Source: an uncultured Bacilli bacterium
GTDB lineage: Bacteria > Bacillota_I > Bacilli_A > RF39 > UBA660
Reading direction: 5' to 3'
DNA: 35,501 bases
Assembly: GCA_944363915.1 (NCBI GenBank)
Contig: CALVVR010000017.1
Span: 1-35,501, forward strand
Shown: piece after piece, positions 1 to 10,513 of the stretch
How the letters are laid out: each line of letters starts with the position of its first letter
Numbering within the stretch: position 1 is the first letter of the stretch
The notes under the pieces: generated by a model
What the model was told of the DNA's origin: nothing
Seen by the model: only the letters and a program-made list of their open reading frames with translations
Databases searched by the model: none
Position numbers and translations under genes: made by a program

Positions 1-520
1 CAAATATTGAACCAACAATACCAGAAGTACCAACAATGCCAAGTGTAGATGAAAGTACATCAAATATCGAACCAACAATACCAGAAGTACCAACAATGCC
101 AAGTGTAGATGAAAGTACATCAAATATTGAACCAACAATACCAGAAGTACCAACAATGCCAAGTGTAGATGAAAGTACATCAAATATCGAACCAACAATA
201 CCAGAAGTACCAACAATGCCAAGTGTAGATGAAAGTACATCAAATATTGAACCAACAATACCAGAAGTACCAACAATGCCAAGTGTAGATGAAAGTACAT
301 CAAATATTGAACCAACAATACCAGAAGTACCAACAATGCCAAGTGTAGATGAAAGTACATCAAATATCGAACCAACAGTACCAGAAATACCAACAATGCC
401 AAGTGTAGATGAAAGTACATCAAGTATCGAACCAACAGTACCAGAAATACCAACAATGCCAAGTGTAGATGAAAGTACATCAAGTATCGAACCAACAGTA
501 CCAGAAGTACCAACAATGCC
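1..520 (+). repeat. 60-bp in-frame coding tandem repeat (8 full units and a partial ninth)
   Basis: Units begin at 1, 61, 121, 181, 241, 301, 361 and 421; the ninth (481) diverges after base 520. The array probably continues leftwards outside the window. Units 1-6 are identical in protein and differ only by one silent T/C (ATT or ATC for Ile). Units 7-9 carry Ile-to-Val, Val-to-Ile and Asn-to-Ser changes. The silent variant runs T,C,T,C,T,T,C across units 1-7, which suggests some duplications copied a 120-bp dimer. Confidence 0.97.
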
Positions 521-845
521 GAATATTTCGACAAATTCAATTGAATCTTCATCTAATTATACTCCTTTATATGAAGTTCCTATTGCTGATAATACTAAAG
601 AAATACCTACTATTGATACACAACCAGAACAAACATTTACAGTAAATAATCAGACAGTAGAAAATAATATATCTGCTCAAAATAATGGAACTACAATAAC
701 TGCTGCTGTTCCTAGCATGAGATTAGCATTAAACACAATAAGAGAATGTGAAAACACATTAGAAAAATATGGATTCACAATTGATGTAGAAGAAATTGAT
801 TTTGAAGATTCATATCAAGTAATTTTTAAAATAGAAAAAAAATAG
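1..845 (+). CDS. Tandem-repeat protein, 5'-partial, function unknown
   Basis: The reading frame is open from the left edge (first full codon at base 3), so the real start lies outside the window; the in-frame ATG codons at 36, 96 and so on are repeat residues, not starts. About 280 residues are visible. Residues 1-175 or so are a 20-residue repeat with consensus MPSVDESTSNIEPTIPEVPT, rich in Pro, Thr, Ser and Glu, of the sort that forms extended stalks or linkers. A non-repetitive Ser/Asn/Thr-rich linker follows, then a compact module of about 45 residues (from VPSMRLALNTIREC to YQVIFKIEKK) that looks like helix-strand-strand. There is no LPXTG motif, transmembrane segment or Cys-rich anchor at the C-terminus, so cell-wall display is not supported by what is visible. 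I do not recognise the C-terminal module. The gene is followed by a strong terminator and is convergent with pgi. Confidence 0.8.
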   Translation, partial: NIEPTIPEVPTMPSVDESTSNIEPTIPEVPTMPSVDESTSNIEPTIPEVPTMPSVDESTSNIEPTIPEVPTMPSVDESTSNIEPTIPEVPTMPSVDESTSNIEPTIPEVPTMPSVDESTSNIEPTVPEIPTMPSVDESTSSIEPTVPEIPTMPSVDESTSSIEPTVPEVPTMPNISTNSIESSSNYTPLYEVPIADNTKEIPTIDTQPEQTFTVNNQTVENNISAQNNGTTITAAVPSMRLALNTIRECENTLEKYGFTIDVEEIDFEDSYQVIFKIEKK

Positions 846-1035: not shown

Positions 1036-1065
1036 AAAAGCAGATAACTTTTAGTATCTGCTTTT
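1036..1065 (-). terminator. Terminator of the glucan synthase-pgi operon
   Basis: A perfect 11-bp inverted repeat (AAAAGCAGATA and TATCTGCTTTT) with an 8-nt loop lies just beyond the pgi stop codon. On the minus strand the stem ends in a run of T. Its symmetry could also let it act on plus-strand transcripts. Confidence 0.8.
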
Positions 1066-1072
1066 AAAATAA

Positions 1073-2266
1073 TTATTTTTTTAATTCTTTTTCAATTAAT
1101 TTTTTATATGCGGTTACTCCAGGTTGGTCAAAAGGATTAACATCTAACAAATATCCTCCAGCGGCAGCAGCAATTTCAAAAAAGTAAATTAACATGCCAA
1201 TATGGAATTCATCTAAGTCATCAATCATAATGACATTACTTTCTACCCCGGCTTCAAAATGAGCGTAAGCAACTTGCTTAAGAGCAATCATATTAATATC
1301 TTCAACTGGATACTTATATAAATTGTTTTTTAGATTTCCTTTTTTATCAATCCCTATGATAGTTTCAAAAATAATTGGCGTTCCATCTTGATAAAATTGA
1401 CCTAAAGAATGCAAATCTCTAGTATTATTAGAAGAACTTGGCAAAATTCCTTTTTTATTTTTTCCTTGAGTTTCGCCAAATAGTTGTTTTAACCATTCGA
1501 CAAAATATTCTAGTTTAGGCTCATAAAATGTAAATAATTCAACTAATTTTCCTTGATGATATAAACTATCTCTTATTGTTGCATATTTAAAAGCAAGATC
1601 TTTATTAACTTTTTTAATTCCTAGTAATAATTTATCAATGTCAATACCACTAACAGCAATTGGAAGAAGACCGACAGCTGTCAATACTGAATACCTTCCT
1701 CCAATTTGTGTAGGAACAATGAATGATTGATAATTATTATTATCAGCTAATTTACGTAAAATTCCTTTTTCTGGATCAGTTGTAATAATAATTCTTTTTT
1801 TAAGTTCATCATCAGTATATTTATTTTTCATTTTTTCATAAATAATATCAAAAGCAATACTTGGTTCTAAAGTCGTTCCAGATTTAGAAATAACATTTAT
1901 TATTGTTTCTTTATCGTCCATATATGAAATTAGTTCAGTAAGATAACTTTCTGATAAAGAGTTGCCAGCAAAAATAATTTCTGGCTTTTCTTTTTTAAAA
2001 TATGGTTTTAAAGCTGTAATTACTGCTTTAGCTCCTAAAAAAGATCCACCAATTCCGATTACAATAAATAATTCACAATTTTTTCTAATTTCTTTGCTGA
2101 TATTTTTAATTTTAATTACCTCGTCAGGAGAAATACATTTATTGATATCATACCAATCTAGCATTTCTCCACCATTATTTAAAGTATTCTTTATTTTTAA
2201 AATTTTATCATCATAAAATTTTAAATTTCTATCTTTTAAATATGTTTTAAAATCAGTTTTAAGCAT
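1073..2266 (-). CDS. pgi: Glucose-6-phosphate isomerase
   Basis: Interconverts glucose 6-phosphate and fructose 6-phosphate in the cytoplasm. Both family signatures are present: GGRYSVLTAVGLLP near the middle, and NPFDQPGVTAYKK at the C-terminus (FDQPGV followed by the conserved Lys). The motif GETQGKN carries the expected catalytic Glu, and DLHSLGQF the conserved His. At 397 aa it is shorter than typical Bacillota enzymes (about 450 aa), mainly through a compact N-terminus. The start ATG (2264-2266) overlaps the upstream stop codon as TAATG, and its GGAGG ribosome binding site lies inside the last codons of the upstream gene, so translation is coupled to the large glucan synthase. It is the last gene of that operon; a terminator follows. 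The pairing suggests hexose-phosphate flow into or out of beta-glucan metabolism (inference). Confidence 0.97.
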   Translation of the reverse strand: MLKTDFKTYLKDRNLKFYDDKILKIKNTLNNGGEMLDWYDINKCISPDEVIKIKNISKEIRKNCELFIVIGIGGSFLGAKAVITALKPYFKKEKPEIIFAGNSLSESYLTELISYMDDKETIINVISKSGTTLEPSIAFDIIYEKMKNKYTDDELKKRIIITTDPEKGILRKLADNNNYQSFIVPTQIGGRYSVLTAVGLLPIAVSGIDIDKLLLGIKKVNKDLAFKYATIRDSLYHQGKLVELFTFYEPKLEYFVEWLKQLFGETQGKNKKGILPSSSNNTRDLHSLGQFYQDGTPIIFETIIGIDKKGNLKNNLYKYPVEDINMIALKQVAYAHFEAGVESNVIMIDDLDEFHIGMLIYFFEIAAAAGGYLLDVNPFDQPGVTAYKKLIEKELKK

Positions 2267-5200
2267 TATTTTCCTCCTCGTATCTGAACAATCACTACGT
2301 GATCGCTGTTGTCATCAATTAATGGAATATAATTATGTTTAATAGTTTTATTATCCACAGTAATACTATTTTTATCTTTTTTAATTACTGTTATGTTATA
2401 AGTTGAATTATTGTATTTGTAATTAATTTCATATTTATTCCAACTACTTGGTAGATGTGGTTTAATATAAAGTTTTTTTCCTATTTTATTAAACCCTAGT
2501 ATGTCAATTAAACCAACACGATAAAACCATCCCGCACTACCTGTATACCAACTCCAACCACCTTTAGCTTTAAAATTATTATTACTATAGATATCGGCAG
2601 CAATAGCAAAAGGTTCTAATTGGTAAATGTCAGCATCATTTTTATTTTTACTTCGTTCAATTGGGTTAACCATTTGATATACTTTATAAGCTAAATCATA
2701 ATTTCCAGTTTTAATTAAAGCTTGAATATACCAAGCAACTGCATGGGTATATTGTCCACCATTTTCTCTAATTCCTTTAGGATAGTCCATAATGTATCCA
2801 GGATCGTCTTTAGAATTTTCAAAAGCTGGATATAATAATCTTACAATTTTTAAATCTTTATCGAATAATTGGTCATTTACAGCATTTAAGATTGATGGTA
2901 TTTGTTCTTTTGTAGCAATATTAGAAAGAATAGCAAAACTTTGAGAAATTAAATCTATTTTACATTCTAAATTATCTTTAGATCCTAATTTATTTCCATT
3001 ATCAAAAAATGCTCTTAAATAATATTCACCATCCCAAGCGTTTTCTTTTAATGATTTCTCTAATTTTTCTTTAAATTCTAACCATTCATTAATTTTTATT
3101 TTTTTATTATATCTATTAGTGAAATCAATAAATTTATCTATTACTTGATATAAGAAGAATCCTAACCAAACACTAGTTCCTTTGCCTTTTTCACCTACTT
3201 TATTCATTCCATCGTTCCAGTCGCCACCGCGTATAAGTGGTAATCCGTTTTCACCAATTTCTTTTTGTGCTAATTTAAGGGCTAACAAACAATGATCATA
3301 AAGACTAGCTGTTTTATCAGTATATATATATTCAATTCCTCTTTCCATTTCTTTATCATCAAGTAAAGGTCCATCGACAAAACAAATCTGTTCATCTAAA
3401 ATTGAATAATCATCAGTAATATTTAAATATTCACTAGTTGCATAAATAAGCCATAAATAATCATCTTTATACTTTGAACGTAATCCAATATTAGTTTCTT
3501 TATGCCACCAATGGAGAACATCACCTTCTTTAAATTGATGTTTTGCATTCCATAAAATCTGTTTTCTTGTTATTTCTGGATGTATTAAACAAATATTCAT
3601 ACTATCTTGCAATTGATCACGATAACCATATGCTCCACCAACTTGATAAAAACCAGCTTTAGCATAAATTCTAGAAGTTATTGCTTGATAAGCTAACCAT
3701 CCATTAAGCATATAATTAAAACTTTCATCATTCGTTTTTATTTGAATAACATCTAACATATCTTGCCAATATTTAACAGTTCTTTTTTCTTCAGCCTTAA
3801 TTTTATTAATTGAATTATATTTATTTAATAAATTTTTAACATTTTCTTCATTAGTAGCTCCTAGAACAAAAGTAAGTTCTTTTTCTTCTGAAGGATTTAT
3901 ATATACAGATGTTTCTATTTCTTTAGATAATATTCTGTTTATTTTTGCATCTTCGATTGGTAAGGTACAACTCATAAATGTTATCATTTTAGAAAAATAC
4001 TGACTATATTGGTTTTTAAGCAATACACAGTTATCTTCTTTATTAAATTCATTTAAAATGTAACGACTAGATTTTTCTTCAGTAACACCTAAACATGGTT
4101 TAATCCAATATTTTAAAACAATTCTTTGTTTAGAAGTTCCATTATTTTTAATTTTTAAATGATAAAACTTAATTGGATCGTCACAGGCAACAAATTGCGT
4201 TAAATTTAAGTCAATATTTTTCCATTTACCTAAAAAGTTCATTTTACCAAAACTCACTTCTGTTAATTGATATTTTAAATGAATATCGTTAATTTTTATT
4301 CCTTCAGAACAATCGGCTAATAACGGATCATTTGACCAAGATGTCAATTTGTATTCACGGCTGTTTTCGGCATATGTAAATCCTGTTTGATTATTAGAAA
4401 TAATACTACCAAAGTGTTCATTTGCAAGAATATTACACCATATTAAAGGAGTATCTGGGTTAGTAATAATATATTTTTTACCATCGTTACTAAAGCCACC
4501 ATAATTATTATAAAATTTAAGTTTCTTATTATCATATTCAATAAATTGACTGTTTTCTTTTTTTACTCTTTCTTTTCGATTAATTGTGTTTAATTTTTGT
4601 AAATTTAACACAAATTCTTCTAAAGAGTGGTATTTGCTACTATCAATTTTAATCCTTGCTACTGTTTTGAATAAGGTAATTTCATTTTCATTAACATTAC
4701 TAGGATCAATTACATAAATATTTCCTGGAGTTTTACTAAAACTATTTAAAGCATACATACGATATTTTTCATTTTCAATTTCTTCGTTGATTATTTTTTT
4801 ATCTTGTTTATCTTTACTATTTAAAATAATCAAATCTATGAAAATTGATTTACTTTTATAATATTCAAATGTGTGTAAAACTTCTTTGATTAAACTTAAG
4901 TTATCTAATTTTTCAACTTCTAGAAAAACAATCGGTCGATCTCCAGAAATGCCAAATCTCCATAAACCAGTTTGATTCAATACATTATTTTTTAAGATTT
5001 CTTTTCTTTCTTGATTAATACTAATGTGACTAGTTTGATATAAATAATTTAACATTGTATTGTAAAGTCGCATATCGTGACCAGTAATATCAACCATTTT
5101 GTTAGTAACATTACTCATAATAGTGGCTACTTCAAATGCTTTTTCGGAAATAACATCAGAATTAGAAAATATATTAACTATCTCTAAAACTTGTTCTTTG

Positions 5201-8200
5201 GATTTGCCAAAACCGTTGATTAAATAAACTGTTTTTTCATTATTAGCTTTAATTGTAACTTTACTTCTTAAGCTGATAATTGGATCGATGCAAGTTCCAC
5301 ATTTATTACTAAGTTTTTGTTCTAAAGCAATTGGATTAGCTCCAGTTCTATTTCGTCCAATAAAATTATAACGATTAGTTTCATAACTATATTTACTATT
5401 TTCATCTATTAATAGTCTATTAACCATATAATAAGTAACGTCTTTATCTCGTAATTTGCGATGAATAATAATTGAATTAGTATTTTCATCATATTCACTT
5501 TGAACAAATAAATTTTGAAAAGTTCTGTGACTTATGTCATCTATATTTTCACTTAAGATTGGTTCAGTATAAGTAGTTAATTCTAAAGTTTTATCTTTTT
5601 CTCCTATGTTCTTAAAAGTGATTTTTCTAATTTCTGCATGATGTGTTTTAGTAACTACAACTTCAGTAGTTGTAATAATATCATGATCTGACCTAATAAA
5701 TTTTATTTTATCTAAAGCAAAAACAACTTCATATTTTTCTGGCATTTTATTAATCGGTGCATAAGTATTACACCAAATTTCGTTAGTATCGATATCTTTA
5801 ATATATAAGAAAATGCCGTAATCTTGTTCAGTAATTTTACGATAACGATTTAATTGAATGGTTCGATACCGACTAAAACCATTGCCTCGATCGTTCATGA
5901 AAACACTATATTTTGAATTAGACAAAATAGAAACTTCTGGTAAAGTTGCGAGATTGTGAAAAACTCTAATGTCATTGATAAACGACTCTTTTTCATAAGT
6001 ATATTTTTTATATTTTGTAATATTAACATCAATAATTGGTTTTAATTGAACTTTTTCCTTATTCAATATTTCAAAAGCATGATTATTAATATCATTGATA
6101 AAGTATTTTTGAATTACATTATTTTTTAAAGTATTGGTAATACTTGCTAAAATCATGCCTTGATGGTGAGCAAAATAAGAATAAACAATTGCTTTGTCTT
6201 CATCATCATATGATTCATAAAAACCGTATTTGCCGATTAATTTTAAATTTTCTAATTTTTTCATATTTTTTAAAACTTCGTTAGTAAATCGTGGTAGTAC
6301 TAAAATTGAACTATATGGTGATATAACAATTCGATTGTTTGCTTCTTCTTGAAGCTTTAAATAAGGTGTTGCAAAAGCTTTATATTTATAGTTTTGAGCA
6401 TCGTCCAATTCATTATATGCTGATTCAGAAATGCCCCAAGGATATTTTCGATTAACTTCTTTCATAAACTCTTTTTGGGCGTAAAAAGCAAAGTCATAAC
6501 TTTCATCAATTAGGGTATTTTCATAAGTTGGAATAAATATTAATGGCATAAAATATTCGAAAGAAGTTCCTGACCAAGACACTAGGCCTTTTTTTCTTTT
6601 GTAAGTAGTAAGTGTTTTATCAAGATTAAACCAATGTTTACTAGGAACATCACCTTTAGCAATTGCTAAATAACTAGTTATTCGACTTTCGCTGGCAAAT
6701 TTATTATAATTAAATGGTTCTAAAATTGCTTCGTCAACATTGTATCCAATACTAAAAACGTCATTTTGATTATAAAGTTTAGAAAAATCGGTTTCATGAA
6801 TTAATTTTTCAATTTTAGATACTAAATCAAGTTCATTTAGTGATTTTAAAAATTCTTTAATTGTTATTAAGGAAGCAATAAAATTTCCACTATCGACAGT
6901 TGAAATAAAATGTGGATATATTACTTCTAATGTATCAATTTTATACCAATTATAAAGGTGGCCATTCCATTTTGGTAGCTTTTCAATTGTGTTAATTATT
7001 TTGTTGAAATAATCAATTACTTCTTTTTTATTAATAAATTCTAATTCATAAGCTGATAAAATTGCAACTAATGATAACCCAATATTAGTTGGAGAAGTTT
7101 TATAATCAGTCTTTTTTTCACGATTTAATTGATAATTATCACAAATTAAATAGTTGTTTTCTTTGGTAATATTTTCTTTAAAAAATTTCCAAGTTAATTT
7201 AGCAATATTAGTTAAATACTCACAATCTTCTTTTTTTAATTTTTCATCTTCTTGTTTTATATCTTCACTGATAGCATAAGCCAAAAAAGGAGCAATGATA
7301 AAAAATATTGCGATAATAATACATTCTATTGGATGTTTACTTATTGATAAAGCTAAAATGATAAGCAATACAGCCACAAAATAATTTATCCAAAACTGCT
7401 TTAAATGATTAGATAAAGTTGTTTTAACTTGTTTTGCTGCATCTTCAGCAGTCATCCATTGTAGTAGATGTTTTTTACTGATAGTCATTCGATAAATAGA
7501 AGTTAAAAAAGATTTGATATATAAATAAGCATTGTAAGGAATACTAGTAAATACAGATAATGTTCGTAAAATAAATGCTTGATATCCAAACGCCATAATA
7601 TTATAATATTTTAAATTTTTACTGTTTTTACTTTGAACAGTAAACAATTGTATTATATAAGAAATAACTGGTAAAATAACTATAAATAAAATAAATATTA
7701 ACCACCAATATGGATGATTCATCGAATAACTTGATAGACAAATTAATATTAACAATAATGAAAAATCTAATAAACTTCTTCTAATATTATCAATTATTTT
7801 AAATTTGCCTAAAGTATTAATTGGATTTTTATATTTTTGATTATCTTCATTTTTTACATTTTTAAAAATCCAATTAATAATTTGCATATCTCCTCTTGCC
7901 CAACGTGAACGCCTTGTAGCATCAACTAAAAATTTAGATGGAAAATCATCAAATAATTCAATATCACTAACAACACCACATCTTAAATAATTTCCTTCAA
8001 GTAAATCGTGACTTAAAATAAGTTGACTAGGAAATCGTTTTTTCAAAACTGTTTGATAAATTTCTAAATCATAAATCCCCTTACCAATAAAACTACCTTC
8101 ATCAAAAACATCTTGATAAAAATTAGGGACGATTGTTGAATAAGGATCTAAGCCACCAATTCCTGCATAAATTTGTGAAAATAACGATTTATTAGTTGAT

Positions 8201-9921
8201 TCAACATCAACACTTATTTTGGGTTGTAAAATTCCATATCCTTTAATCACTTTGTTTTTTTCTTTGTTTAAAATAGGTTTATTAATAGGATGTGCCATTG
8301 CACCTACTAATTTTAAAGCACTATTTAATACTAATTGTGTATCAACATCTAATGTTATAACATATTTTATTTTATGTTTAAAATTATTAAAAGTATGAAT
8401 TTGAAACCAATTTTTTTGTTCTTTTTCAGTTAAATTATTTAAAATTAAATCGTTAAAATGTAATAAAGCTCCTCTTTTTCTTTCGTAACCTAAAAAAGTT
8501 TCTTCACTTTCACTATATTTTCTCGTCCGATAAGCAAAATAAAATATTTCTTCATGATATTTTTTATTTAATTCACAAACTTTTAAAAGTCCTTCTTCTT
8601 TTATTTCTTCATCTTTTTCATAATTTTCCGTTTTACATTCGCAAGCATCACCTAAAAGAGTAAAATAAATATTTTTAGATTTATTAGCTAAATAATAATT
8701 TTCTAATTTGCTAAAAACCTCGTCGACTTTTTGTTTATTTTTTAAAATTGTTGGAATAACAACCATTGTTTTGCAATCTTTAGGAATACCTTTTTCAAAA
8801 TCTAGCTTTGCAAGTGGTTTTGCCGGATAGAGTTTAAGATAAATTTTGTTTAAGAAAGTTATAACAATCTCACTTACTGGAATAATTAAGATTAAAAATC
8901 CTAGCCATTTATTTGGAATAAAATAGTAAGATAGAATAATTGATAATAAGACGCTAAAGATAATTATTAAGGATAGATAAATAAATGTTTTAAATTTTAT
9001 ATTTTGATAAGGAAATAGTAAATTTCCGATGTTTTTATCTTTTTTTATTAATTCTTCTGCTAACTTTTCAATATTTTTGTTTCTTTTTTTTGCCAATTTT
9101 ATCAGTTGTCGACGATATAGATTTTTAGTTTCTAATGTCATAGTTGTATAATATGGATCCTTATTTAATGTTTTTTCAGCATAACATAAAGTATTATTAA
9201 GACTCTCAACTTTTATATTTTCAATCTCTTTGATACTATAAAAAATATTAGAAATTAATATATTATCATTAGTATTATCTAAATGTTCTTTATTTATTAT
9301 TTTTCTTAAAGAAATATTATTACTCTCTAGATAATTATTAAACTGCTTAAATGCGTTATTAGAAAAATTACCTAAATTTTTAATTTTGTCATTGAAAAAA
9401 ACAATTGCTGAAGAAGATTTATAAAAATTATCGGGTAAATATCGTTCTAATTTTAAATTATTTTTTTTCATAACATCTTTTATCATTTTTTTAATAATAT
9501 AATTAATTTTTTCTTTTTCTTTTATTTTTTCTTTTTCTTTTTGACAAATTTCACTTAATTTATTTAAGAGAACGATTGATAATGCTACAGGTATAATTTT
9601 GATTTCTTCGTAGTTTAAATGAATATTATTTTTTTTACAATAATCTTTAATATTCATAATTAAATTAACTTCATCAATTCGATAATTTCTAAATTCCAAA
9701 ATATGAGTTAAAATATTAATTAAATTAACATTTTTATATAAATATTGCTTTTCTTTTTTCTTTTTATTAAATTGTTTAATTGCATCACTTTTTTCTACTA
9801 TTAAATAATAATTATCGATTATCCATTCGTTAACAATACCAATAAAGTAATGATGTTTGGTTATTCTAATTAAATTATCATAATGTTTAGTTATTATTTT
9901 TAATCTATTTTTTATATTCAA
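2266..9921 (-). CDS. Cyclic beta-1,2-glucan synthase-like giant membrane protein (GT84, glucoamylase-like and GH94 regions)
   Basis: A 2551-residue NdvB/Cgs-type protein. In the family such enzymes polymerise glucose from UDP-glucose into beta-1,2-glucan, cyclise it and adjust chain length. Visible order: N-terminal cytosolic region (about 1-310), two membrane helices (about 314-360), a GT84-like glycosyltransferase with DVD (525-527), HDLLEG (638-643) and RWARGDMQ (673-680), further membrane helices (about 710-910), a glucoamylase-like region beginning near PKWNGHLYNWY (the part assigned to cyclisation, GH189, in recent family work), a beta-sandwich region, then a C-terminal GH94 phosphorylase-like domain with GGDWNDGMN (Asp-2234 and Asp-2237) and GWSWYTGSAGW. 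All key motifs look intact. Start is TTG at 9921; an in-frame stop lies six codons upstream and no ATG intervenes. It overlaps pgi as TAATG. Family assignment is strong; whether it makes cyclic glucan rather than degrading or remodelling it is inference. Confidence 0.9.
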   Translation of the reverse strand: MNIKNRLKIITKHYDNLIRITKHHYFIGIVNEWIIDNYYLIVEKSDAIKQFNKKKKEKQYLYKNVNLINILTHILEFRNYRIDEVNLIMNIKDYCKKNNIHLNYEEIKIIPVALSIVLLNKLSEICQKEKEKIKEKEKINYIIKKMIKDVMKKNNLKLERYLPDNFYKSSSAIVFFNDKIKNLGNFSNNAFKQFNNYLESNNISLRKIINKEHLDNTNDNILISNIFYSIKEIENIKVESLNNTLCYAEKTLNKDPYYTTMTLETKNLYRRQLIKLAKKRNKNIEKLAEELIKKDKNIGNLLFPYQNIKFKTFIYLSLIIIFSVLLSIILSYYFIPNKWLGFLILIIPVSEIVITFLNKIYLKLYPAKPLAKLDFEKGIPKDCKTMVVIPTILKNKQKVDEVFSKLENYYLANKSKNIYFTLLGDACECKTENYEKDEEIKEEGLLKVCELNKKYHEEIFYFAYRTRKYSESEETFLGYERKRGALLHFNDLILNNLTEKEQKNWFQIHTFNNFKHKIKYVITLDVDTQLVLNSALKLVGAMAHPINKPILNKEKNKVIKGYGILQPKISVDVESTNKSLFSQIYAGIGGLDPYSTIVPNFYQDVFDEGSFIGKGIYDLEIYQTVLKKRFPSQLILSHDLLEGNYLRCGVVSDIELFDDFPSKFLVDATRRSRWARGDMQIINWIFKNVKNEDNQKYKNPINTLGKFKIIDNIRRSLLDFSLLLILICLSSYSMNHPYWWLIFILFIVILPVISYIIQLFTVQSKNSKNLKYYNIMAFGYQAFILRTLSVFTSIPYNAYLYIKSFLTSIYRMTISKKHLLQWMTAEDAAKQVKTTLSNHLKQFWINYFVAVLLIILALSISKHPIECIIIAIFFIIAPFLAYAISEDIKQEDEKLKKEDCEYLTNIAKLTWKFFKENITKENNYLICDNYQLNREKKTDYKTSPTNIGLSLVAILSAYELEFINKKEVIDYFNKIINTIEKLPKWNGHLYNWYKIDTLEVIYPHFISTVDSGNFIASLITIKEFLKSLNELDLVSKIEKLIHETDFSKLYNQNDVFSIGYNVDEAILEPFNYNKFASESRITSYLAIAKGDVPSKHWFNLDKTLTTYKRKKGLVSWSGTSFEYFMPLIFIPTYENTLIDESYDFAFYAQKEFMKEVNRKYPWGISESAYNELDDAQNYKYKAFATPYLKLQEEANNRIVISPYSSILVLPRFTNEVLKNMKKLENLKLIGKYGFYESYDDEDKAIVYSYFAHHQGMILASITNTLKNNVIQKYFINDINNHAFEILNKEKVQLKPIIDVNITKYKKYTYEKESFINDIRVFHNLATLPEVSILSNSKYSVFMNDRGNGFSRYRTIQLNRYRKITEQDYGIFLYIKDIDTNEIWCNTYAPINKMPEKYEVVFALDKIKFIRSDHDIITTTEVVVTKTHHAEIRKITFKNIGEKDKTLELTTYTEPILSENIDDISHRTFQNLFVQSEYDENTNSIIIHRKLRDKDVTYYMVNRLLIDENSKYSYETNRYNFIGRNRTGANPIALEQKLSNKCGTCIDPIISLRSKVTIKANNEKTVYLINGFGKSKEQVLEIVNIFSNSDVISEKAFEVATIMSNVTNKMVDITGHDMRLYNTMLNYLYQTSHISINQERKEILKNNVLNQTGLWRFGISGDRPIVFLEVEKLDNLSLIKEVLHTFEYYKSKSIFIDLIILNSKDKQDKKIINEEIENEKYRMYALNSFSKTPGNIYVIDPSNVNENEITLFKTVARIKIDSSKYHSLEEFVLNLQKLNTINRKERVKKENSQFIEYDNKKLKFYNNYGGFSNDGKKYIITNPDTPLIWCNILANEHFGSIISNNQTGFTYAENSREYKLTSWSNDPLLADCSEGIKINDIHLKYQLTEVSFGKMNFLGKWKNIDLNLTQFVACDDPIKFYHLKIKNNGTSKQRIVLKYWIKPCLGVTEEKSSRYILNEFNKEDNCVLLKNQYSQYFSKMITFMSCTLPIEDAKINRILSKEIETSVYINPSEEKELTFVLGATNEENVKNLLNKYNSINKIKAEEKRTVKYWQDMLDVIQIKTNDESFNYMLNGWLAYQAITSRIYAKAGFYQVGGAYGYRDQLQDSMNICLIHPEITRKQILWNAKHQFKEGDVLHWWHKETNIGLRSKYKDDYLWLIYATSEYLNITDDYSILDEQICFVDGPLLDDKEMERGIEYIYTDKTASLYDHCLLALKLAQKEIGENGLPLIRGGDWNDGMNKVGEKGKGTSVWLGFFLYQVIDKFIDFTNRYNKKIKINEWLEFKEKLEKSLKENAWDGEYYLRAFFDNGNKLGSKDNLECKIDLISQSFAILSNIATKEQIPSILNAVNDQLFDKDLKIVRLLYPAFENSKDDPGYIMDYPKGIRENGGQYTHAVAWYIQALIKTGNYDLAYKVYQMVNPIERSKNKNDADIYQLEPFAIAADIYSNNNFKAKGGWSWYTGSAGWFYRVGLIDILGFNKIGKKLYIKPHLPSSWNKYEINYKYNNSTYNITVIKKDKNSITVDNKTIKHNYIPLIDDNSDHVVIVQIRGGK

Positions 9922-9953: not shown

Positions 9954-9983
9954 AATATATCATATTTTTAACATTTATGTAAA
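9954..9983 (-). promoter_or_regulatory. Promoter of the glucan synthase-pgi operon
   Basis: On the minus strand: -35 TTTACA, 18-bp spacer, extended -10 TGA-TATATT, about 33 bp upstream of the TTG start. Confidence 0.6.
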
Positions 9984-10007: not shown

Positions 10008-10513
10008 TTAATTATTAAGTTCATTATCTATTAATATTTTTATTTTTTTATAACTATTATATAGTATTTGTTCGATTCCTTTTTTACAATTAGTTGGCGA
10101 AGAAGAAGGTAATTTTATATCTTCAATATTAGTATCTTTTAGTATATATTTTTGATATAATTGATGAGCTTTATTACCGGTAGTAAAGATGTATTTGATA
10201 TTGCTTTTTTTAATTATTTTTTTTATATCATTGGGAACAATATTTTTAATAGTATTGTCCATCGAACCTTCAATTTCACATTTTTTTACAACATCAAACA
10301 AAGCAATGTGATGATTTAATAAAATCTTAATTTATCATTGTTATTATTTCCAATTTTTTCATCAAATACTTTTGATAAGATATTCCAAAAACGATTTTGG
10401 GGATGACTATAATAAAATTGTTTTTCCCGTGATTTAACTGAGGGAAAACTTCCTAAAATTAAAACGATACTATTTTTATCGTAAATAGGTTTTAAAGGAT
10501 GTTCTATAAGCAT
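10008..10513 (-). pseudogene. DNA-deoxyinosine/uracil-DNA glycosylase (Mug-like superfamily), frameshifted
   Basis: Two consecutive reading frames form one protein of about 168 residues. The N-terminal half (10316-10513) reads MLIEHPLKPIYDKNSIVLILGSF with the family motif GSFPSVKSREKQFYYSHPQN, then hits a stop just after DKLRF. The C-terminal half resumes one frame over as LLNHHIALFDVVKKCEIEGS, then SMDNTIKNIVPNDI and IFTTGNKAHQLY, as expected for hypoxanthine- or mismatch-uracil-DNA glycosylases. Restoring one T within the T4 tract (A4 at 10321-10324 on the plus strand) joins both halves. The gene has a good ribosome binding site (GGTGG before the ATG at 10513) and its own -10 box, so decay, if real, is recent. 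A sequencing or assembly indel, or slippage-rescued expression, cannot be excluded. Confidence 0.85.

Follow-up and report, generated by a model that had tools for sequence, protein, structure and literature searches.

The cgs–pgi locus

The window, meaning the whole 35,501-nucleotide stretch analysed here, harbors two adjoining genes on the reverse strand. The first, cgs (2266–9921), is an open reading frame of 2551 amino acids encoding a giant cyclic beta-1,2-glucan synthase (Cgs). It occupies 21.6% of the window, in line with a first-pass annotation of this DNA that had put its share above a fifth. It begins with TTG, at a position homologous to the start codons of relatives within the genus, which are ATG in most cases and TTG in G004. 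The second, pgi (1073–2266), is intact and encodes a glucose-6-phosphate isomerase (PGI) of 397 amino acids with catalytic-type residues R191, E265, H286 and K388. The product matches PRK14097 over its full length with 439.3 bits, 4 bits under the equivalog cut-off, and the Pfam PGI profile with 85.8 bits against a cut-off of 22. Profiles and catalytic Arg, Glu, His and Lys together confirm, at sequence level, its membership of the PGI family.

The TAA stop of cgs and the ATG start of pgi overlap as TAATG, and the ribosome-binding site of pgi, AGGAGG (2273–2278, reverse strand), lies inside the 3′ end of cgs, both as first annotated. In relatives, cgs and pgi mostly overlap or are separated by no more than about 20 bases; gaps of 40–210 bases occur in some, and one or more genes intervene in a few. 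Just upstream of cgs, on the same strand, a promoter-like TTTACA-18-TATATT with TG (9954–9983) matches at 10 of 12 positions and belongs to a class of sites not above chance. Following pgi is a hairpin (1036–1065, reverse strand; −13.1 kcal/mol, z −4.2) with a T run at the stem end, the likely terminator of cgs–pgi. The gene after pgi converges, therefore the transcript is most likely limited to these two genes. The initial description of a tightly packed stretch holds for 10.7–35 kb; the pair itself and its neighbouring genes are on opposite strands.

The surroundings contain two further features. At 1–845 (forward strand) lies a 60-bp tandem repeat, with 8.7 copies that are 98% alike. Its translation, a Pro/Glu-rich repeat of 20 residues, forms the C-terminal portion of what, judged by the N-terminal sequence of relatives, is a ParB-family-like protein; complete relatives have 540–601 amino acids, and the repeat unit varies among species of the same genus. 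At 10008–10513 (reverse strand), a frameshift near codons 61/62 breaks up a gene of the uracil-DNA-glycosylase superfamily. The gene is complete in L078 (162 amino acids), the window copy being either a pseudogene or an assembly error.

Domains and active sites of the synthase

The window Cgs matches the Agrobacterium tumefaciens enzyme (8RF0, 8RF9) over its whole length, from the N-terminal domain to the C-terminus, with 1316 bits, and also matches the cyclase domain of Thermoanaerobacter italicus CGS (8WY1). Pfam places the GH94 catalytic domain at residues 2051–2476, the GH94 supersandwich in two stretches and Glycoamylase/GH189 at 1075–1274; NCBIfam has no model for this synthase. Hydrophobic stretches, as read from the sequence, occur at matching places.

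All key residues described for the A. tumefaciens enzyme (cited in 8RF0 numbering; PMC10901819/PMC11842490) have counterparts in the window Cgs. The GT84 glycosyltransferase region (7822–8811, reverse strand; residues about 371–700 by alignment to 8RF0) contains D425, D525 and D527, D639, R673-W674 and the priming Y594, corresponding to the UDP-binding D527, D624 and D626, the base D739, the RW motif and the priming Y694. In the GH189 cyclase domain (6022–7272, reverse strand; residues 884–1300), the acid/base E1078, E1122, the nucleophile E1166 and H1252-H1253 are present, E1078 and E1166 standing for the cyclase glutamates E1300 and E1386. Counted along the printed alignment, E1078, E1122 and E1166 equal E1356, E1400 and E1442 of the T. 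italicus enzyme. The GH94 phosphorylase part (2269–5940, reverse strand; residues 1328–2551) holds D2102 and the catalytic D2237, the counterparts of D2393 and D2528.

Across relatives, the GT84 residues are conserved in 60–61 of 61 RF39-type alignment rows, and catalytic residues at all sites are kept in practically every Cgs. Structure prediction by domain, proposed at the outset, gave an AlphaFold model of the window cyclase with a pLDDT of 92.8, which superposes on 8WY1 at 1.2 Å over 405 residues (Z 64.5, 44% identical). By alignment and model, the window Cgs has all three catalytic sites intact, as the first-pass annotation had read from their motifs, and is an enzyme of known kind with an ordinary mechanism. 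A decayed synthase is rejected for the window copy and is true for one relative, G030, in which L069 (5146–12651) carries a full-length Cgs reading frame with six key residues lost across all three active sites. There another gene separates cgs from pgi, and the protein is a pseudo-enzyme or a decaying copy.

Distribution of the gene pair

A survey of the family with a fused GH94–PGI query over 291 genomes found both genes in 60, cgs only in one, pgi only in 21 and neither in 209 (Fisher p 6e-43, not corrected for phylogeny and with incomplete MAGs). Counted by genus, the figures for both, cgs only, pgi only and neither are 39, 0, 14 and 97 (p 1.5e-24, likewise uncorrected for phylogeny). About 21% of the sampled family genomes carry an intact synthase, nearly always with pgi. 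In about 45 of the 60 genomes with both, pgi lies directly downstream of cgs; a script counted 46 same-strand adjacencies, from which G281 was subtracted, its genes being on different contigs and its GH94 match ending at a contig edge. The two genes are 0.7–2.7 kb apart in six genomes and on different contigs, some at contig ends, in nine. Two of the pgi-only genomes, G094 and G226, have a short cgs remnant adjoining pgi, and in genus g75 cgs is reduced to a remnant of 160–170 amino acids next to pgi. Within the genus of the window, 11 genomes have both genes and 7 neither, with pgi exactly where cgs is. All 16 cgs-bearing family members among the first 60 relatives have pgi downstream, 15 directly and G030 after 590 bases.

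A contig scan of 84,980 species genomes extends the survey beyond the family. The best 80 cgs loci, assigned by title, G+C and tree, comprise 47 from RF39-type Bacilli, 26 from Bacteroidales and 7 from Clostridia. The taxonomy gives class Bacilli only, and RF39-type is a label which we presume from names such as Candidatus Onthousia and Bacilli or Mollicutes bacterium and from GTDB usage. Among these best 80 loci, 43 of the RF39-type ones have flanking sequence, and in 39 of these pgi is downstream of cgs, in differing surroundings; it follows cgs in none of the 33 Bacteroidales or Clostridia loci. No larger conserved cluster was seen around the pair, whose neighbours vary by genus (uvrB, PolIV-type, SPFH, PAP2, ParB and others); in three loci (C37: L076, L098, L108) PMM/PGM comes right after pgi.

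The linkage of cgs and pgi is real, family-wide and lineage-specific. The two surveys rule out chance adjacency, and neither of the outcomes named beforehand as adverse, an adjacency peculiar to the window genome or lost active-site residues, occurred. In the literature searched, no text was found that connects cgs to pgi or reports this synthase from RF39. Novelty lies in the family-wide linkage, not in the enzyme.

History of the pair

In a tree with 10 PGIs from other Bacilli families, those of the family group separately as a single clade with support 100. Over 39 loci, the distances among Cgs proteins are correlated with those among the PGIs (Mantel r 0.81, 0 of 999). A single PGI clade with correlated distances indicates a pair that is old in the family and was either lost many times or kept patchily; on these trees, PGI is an old, family-specific clade co-inherited with Cgs. 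A gain of PGI together with cgs from elsewhere was considered and rejected, the family clade not being nested among the 10 other-Bacilli PGIs sampled. Separately, in a Cgs tree rooted on Clostridia, Bacteroidales Cgs (L100–L143, L151) fall inside RF39-type Cgs, beside anaerobic-digester Mollicutes sequences. This is a FastTree topology with composition warnings and long branches, which suggests, as a lead, transfer of Cgs between phyla in gut or rumen to Bacteroidales without pgi.

Sugar metabolism around PGI

The classic Embden-Meyerhof enzyme set is incomplete in the family: PfkA-type phosphofructokinase occurs in 0 of 37 family genomes, against almost every genome from other Bacilli families. 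Class II and III FBPases (PF03320, PF06874) are likewise absent from all 37, which leaves gluconeogenic supply through either class unsupported. Transketolase is present in nearly all family genomes, and FBP aldolase and PMM/PGM in most. The window genome has PMM/PGM, GalU (over cut-off), FBP aldolase and transketolase, and with PGI, PMM/PGM and GalU the line from fructose-6-phosphate through glucose-6-phosphate and glucose-1-phosphate to UDP-glucose is unbroken.

The sole PfkB-family kinase found in the window genome (G000:C18:24980-25825) is YihV/ketohexokinase-like, nearest to the sulfofructose kinase YihV, and this type is kept by nearly all sampled members of the family (f1). It is a candidate alternative phosphofructokinase; because YihV phosphorylates a ketose phosphate analogue at C1, its type could in principle act on fructose-6-phosphate. 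In G012, the gene for this kinase adjoins a PPDK-like gene. With PfkA and both FBPase classes absent and the PfkB kinase YihV-like, classic glycolysis from glucose-6-phosphate cannot be assumed.

Some genomes depart from this pattern. Those in the window's genus that lack both cgs and pgi nevertheless carry GalU and PMM/PGM, so that some UDP-glucose is made there in the absence of PGI and glucose phosphates come from elsewhere, and G022, G025 and G026 have cgs–pgi and no recognised GalU. G016, of the same genus and 94% complete, is without galU, FBP aldolase, transketolase and PfkB; it seems to have largely lost its sugar metabolism or to be a misplaced bin.

Role of the operon

The explanation that fits best is that cgs–pgi is an operon for cyclic beta-1,2-glucan in which PGI joins the fructose-6-phosphate pool to UDP-glucose; this, not classic glycolysis, is probably the main reason why pgi is kept in the family. 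By analogy with characterised enzymes, the GT84 domain would glucosylate its own Tyr594 and extend a beta-1,2-glucan with UDP-glucose, GH94 would trim the chain by phosphorolysis, freeing glucose-1-phosphate, and GH189 would close the ring, which a putative transporter may export. Genome content suggests that PGI, PMM/PGM and GalU in turn would carry fructose-6-phosphate to UDP-glucose, chiefly for the large demand of the synthase, and that PGI could also return GH94-released glucose-1-phosphate in reverse. Of the two functions initially proposed for the linkage, balancing of hexose phosphate for UDP-glucose is the better fit. Supply is favoured on the ground that phosphorolysis can give back no more than the synthase has consumed.

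The kept catalytic residues, the cyclase fold, translational coupling, the likely shared terminator, the co-occurrence surveys, the single PGI clade with its correlated Cgs distances, the absence of PfkA and the PMM/PGM, GalU, FBP aldolase and transketolase of the window genome all argue for this explanation as a whole. Against it stand the same-genus genomes with GalU and PMM/PGM and no pgi, the three cgs genomes lacking a recognised GalU, a PfkB-type kinase that might restore glycolysis, the 21 pgi-only genomes and the tendency of closely linked genes to be lost together for that reason alone. A stronger form of the proposal, that pgi in this PfkA-less family is no longer a glycolysis gene but an accessory of cyclic glucan synthesis, retained mainly alongside the synthase and moving fructose-6-phosphate into UDP-glucose, is tentative and somewhat less probable than its opposite.

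The other function initially proposed, GH94 feeding glucose-1-phosphate to glycolysis, is weakened by the lack of PfkA, which leaves the YihV/ketohexokinase-like kinase as the only enzyme that could fill the step. In its broader form, PGI would mainly carry GH94-released glucose-1-phosphate, via PMM/PGM, to fructose-6-phosphate, from where a PfkB-type kinase or transketolase leads into central metabolism. The intact GH94 site, the presence of PMM/PGM, transketolase and FBP aldolase and the conservation of the YihV-like kinase are consistent with such salvage, but phosphorolysis trims only chains already paid for with UDP-glucose, so that the return flux is at most equal to the input, and finished rings are not cleaved by Cgs according to a review (PMC11842490); overall it is unlikely. 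A purely historical linkage, in which repeated deletions removed an ancient operon as a unit and nothing in particular binds pgi to glucan synthesis, is unlikely as well. Adjacency by itself yields joint losses and pgi alone is kept in 14 genera, yet the pair persists amid different gene surroundings, both genes are held by the 15 genomes in which they lie apart on one contig or on different contigs, and pgi is missing from only 1 of 61 cgs genomes. An inactive or re-purposed synthase, as the residue losses in G030 and the remnant in g75 might suggest, is highly improbable, since every site is intact in the window copy and in practically all others.

Cyclic beta-1,2-glucan is mainly known as an osmotic and host-interaction factor of Gram-negative bacteria. 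An intact synthase in gut-type Bacilli of reduced genome, nearly always accompanied by pgi, suggests that the glucan matters there too. UDP-glucose supply by PGI would be an example, open to testing, of an enzyme of central metabolism kept for the sake of a single biosynthetic product, and bears on the sugar metabolism of uncultured bacteria that lack PfkA.

Comparison with known systems

With A. tumefaciens Cgs/ChvB (8RF0, 8RF9; PMC10901819), the window enzyme shares the domain order NTD-GT84-CY(GH189)-GH94, the UDP-binding Asp, priming Tyr and base Asp residues, the RW motif, the cyclase Glu pair and the GH94 Asp residues. It differs in being about 250 residues shorter, in its operon with pgi and in its Bacilli lineage. 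Insertions of about 140–155 residues occur in 8WY1 (149–302) and 8RF0 (1118–1256) at window residues about 1023–1036; a comparable insertion is absent from the window Cgs and other RF39-type rows, and the clostridial rows analysed showed none either. A motif of four helices, about 120 residues long, is described in the cyclase domain of the Agrobacterium enzyme as taking part in a dimer (PMC10901819), and position and size suggest that this motif is the stretch missing from the window Cgs.

All of E1356, E1400, E1442, H1536 and H1537 of the T. italicus cyclase (8WY1, GH189; PMC10834661) are matched, while its insertion of about 150 residues, near window residue 1034, is lacking. Biochemical proof exists for the cyclase of this enzyme, which comes from a member of the Bacillota (Thermoanaerobacter; PMC10834661), so the initial view of such glucans as a Gram-negative theme needs qualifying. 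Clostridial and Bacteroidales Cgs (L100–L153) share the full architecture and catalytic residues, but have no pgi nearby; downstream of cgs, several Clostridia instead carry genes for a response regulator and a histidine kinase. Stand-alone GH94 phosphorylases (cellobiose, chitobiose and 1,2-beta-oligoglucan phosphorylase) have the GH94 domain and catalytic Asp in common with the window protein, in which, however, GH94 is fused to GT84 and GH189. Finally, the Firmicutes-type PGI (PRK14097) is matched over its full length and in its catalytic residues, whereas the PGI of the family falls in a separate clade from those of other Bacilli and is tied to cgs.
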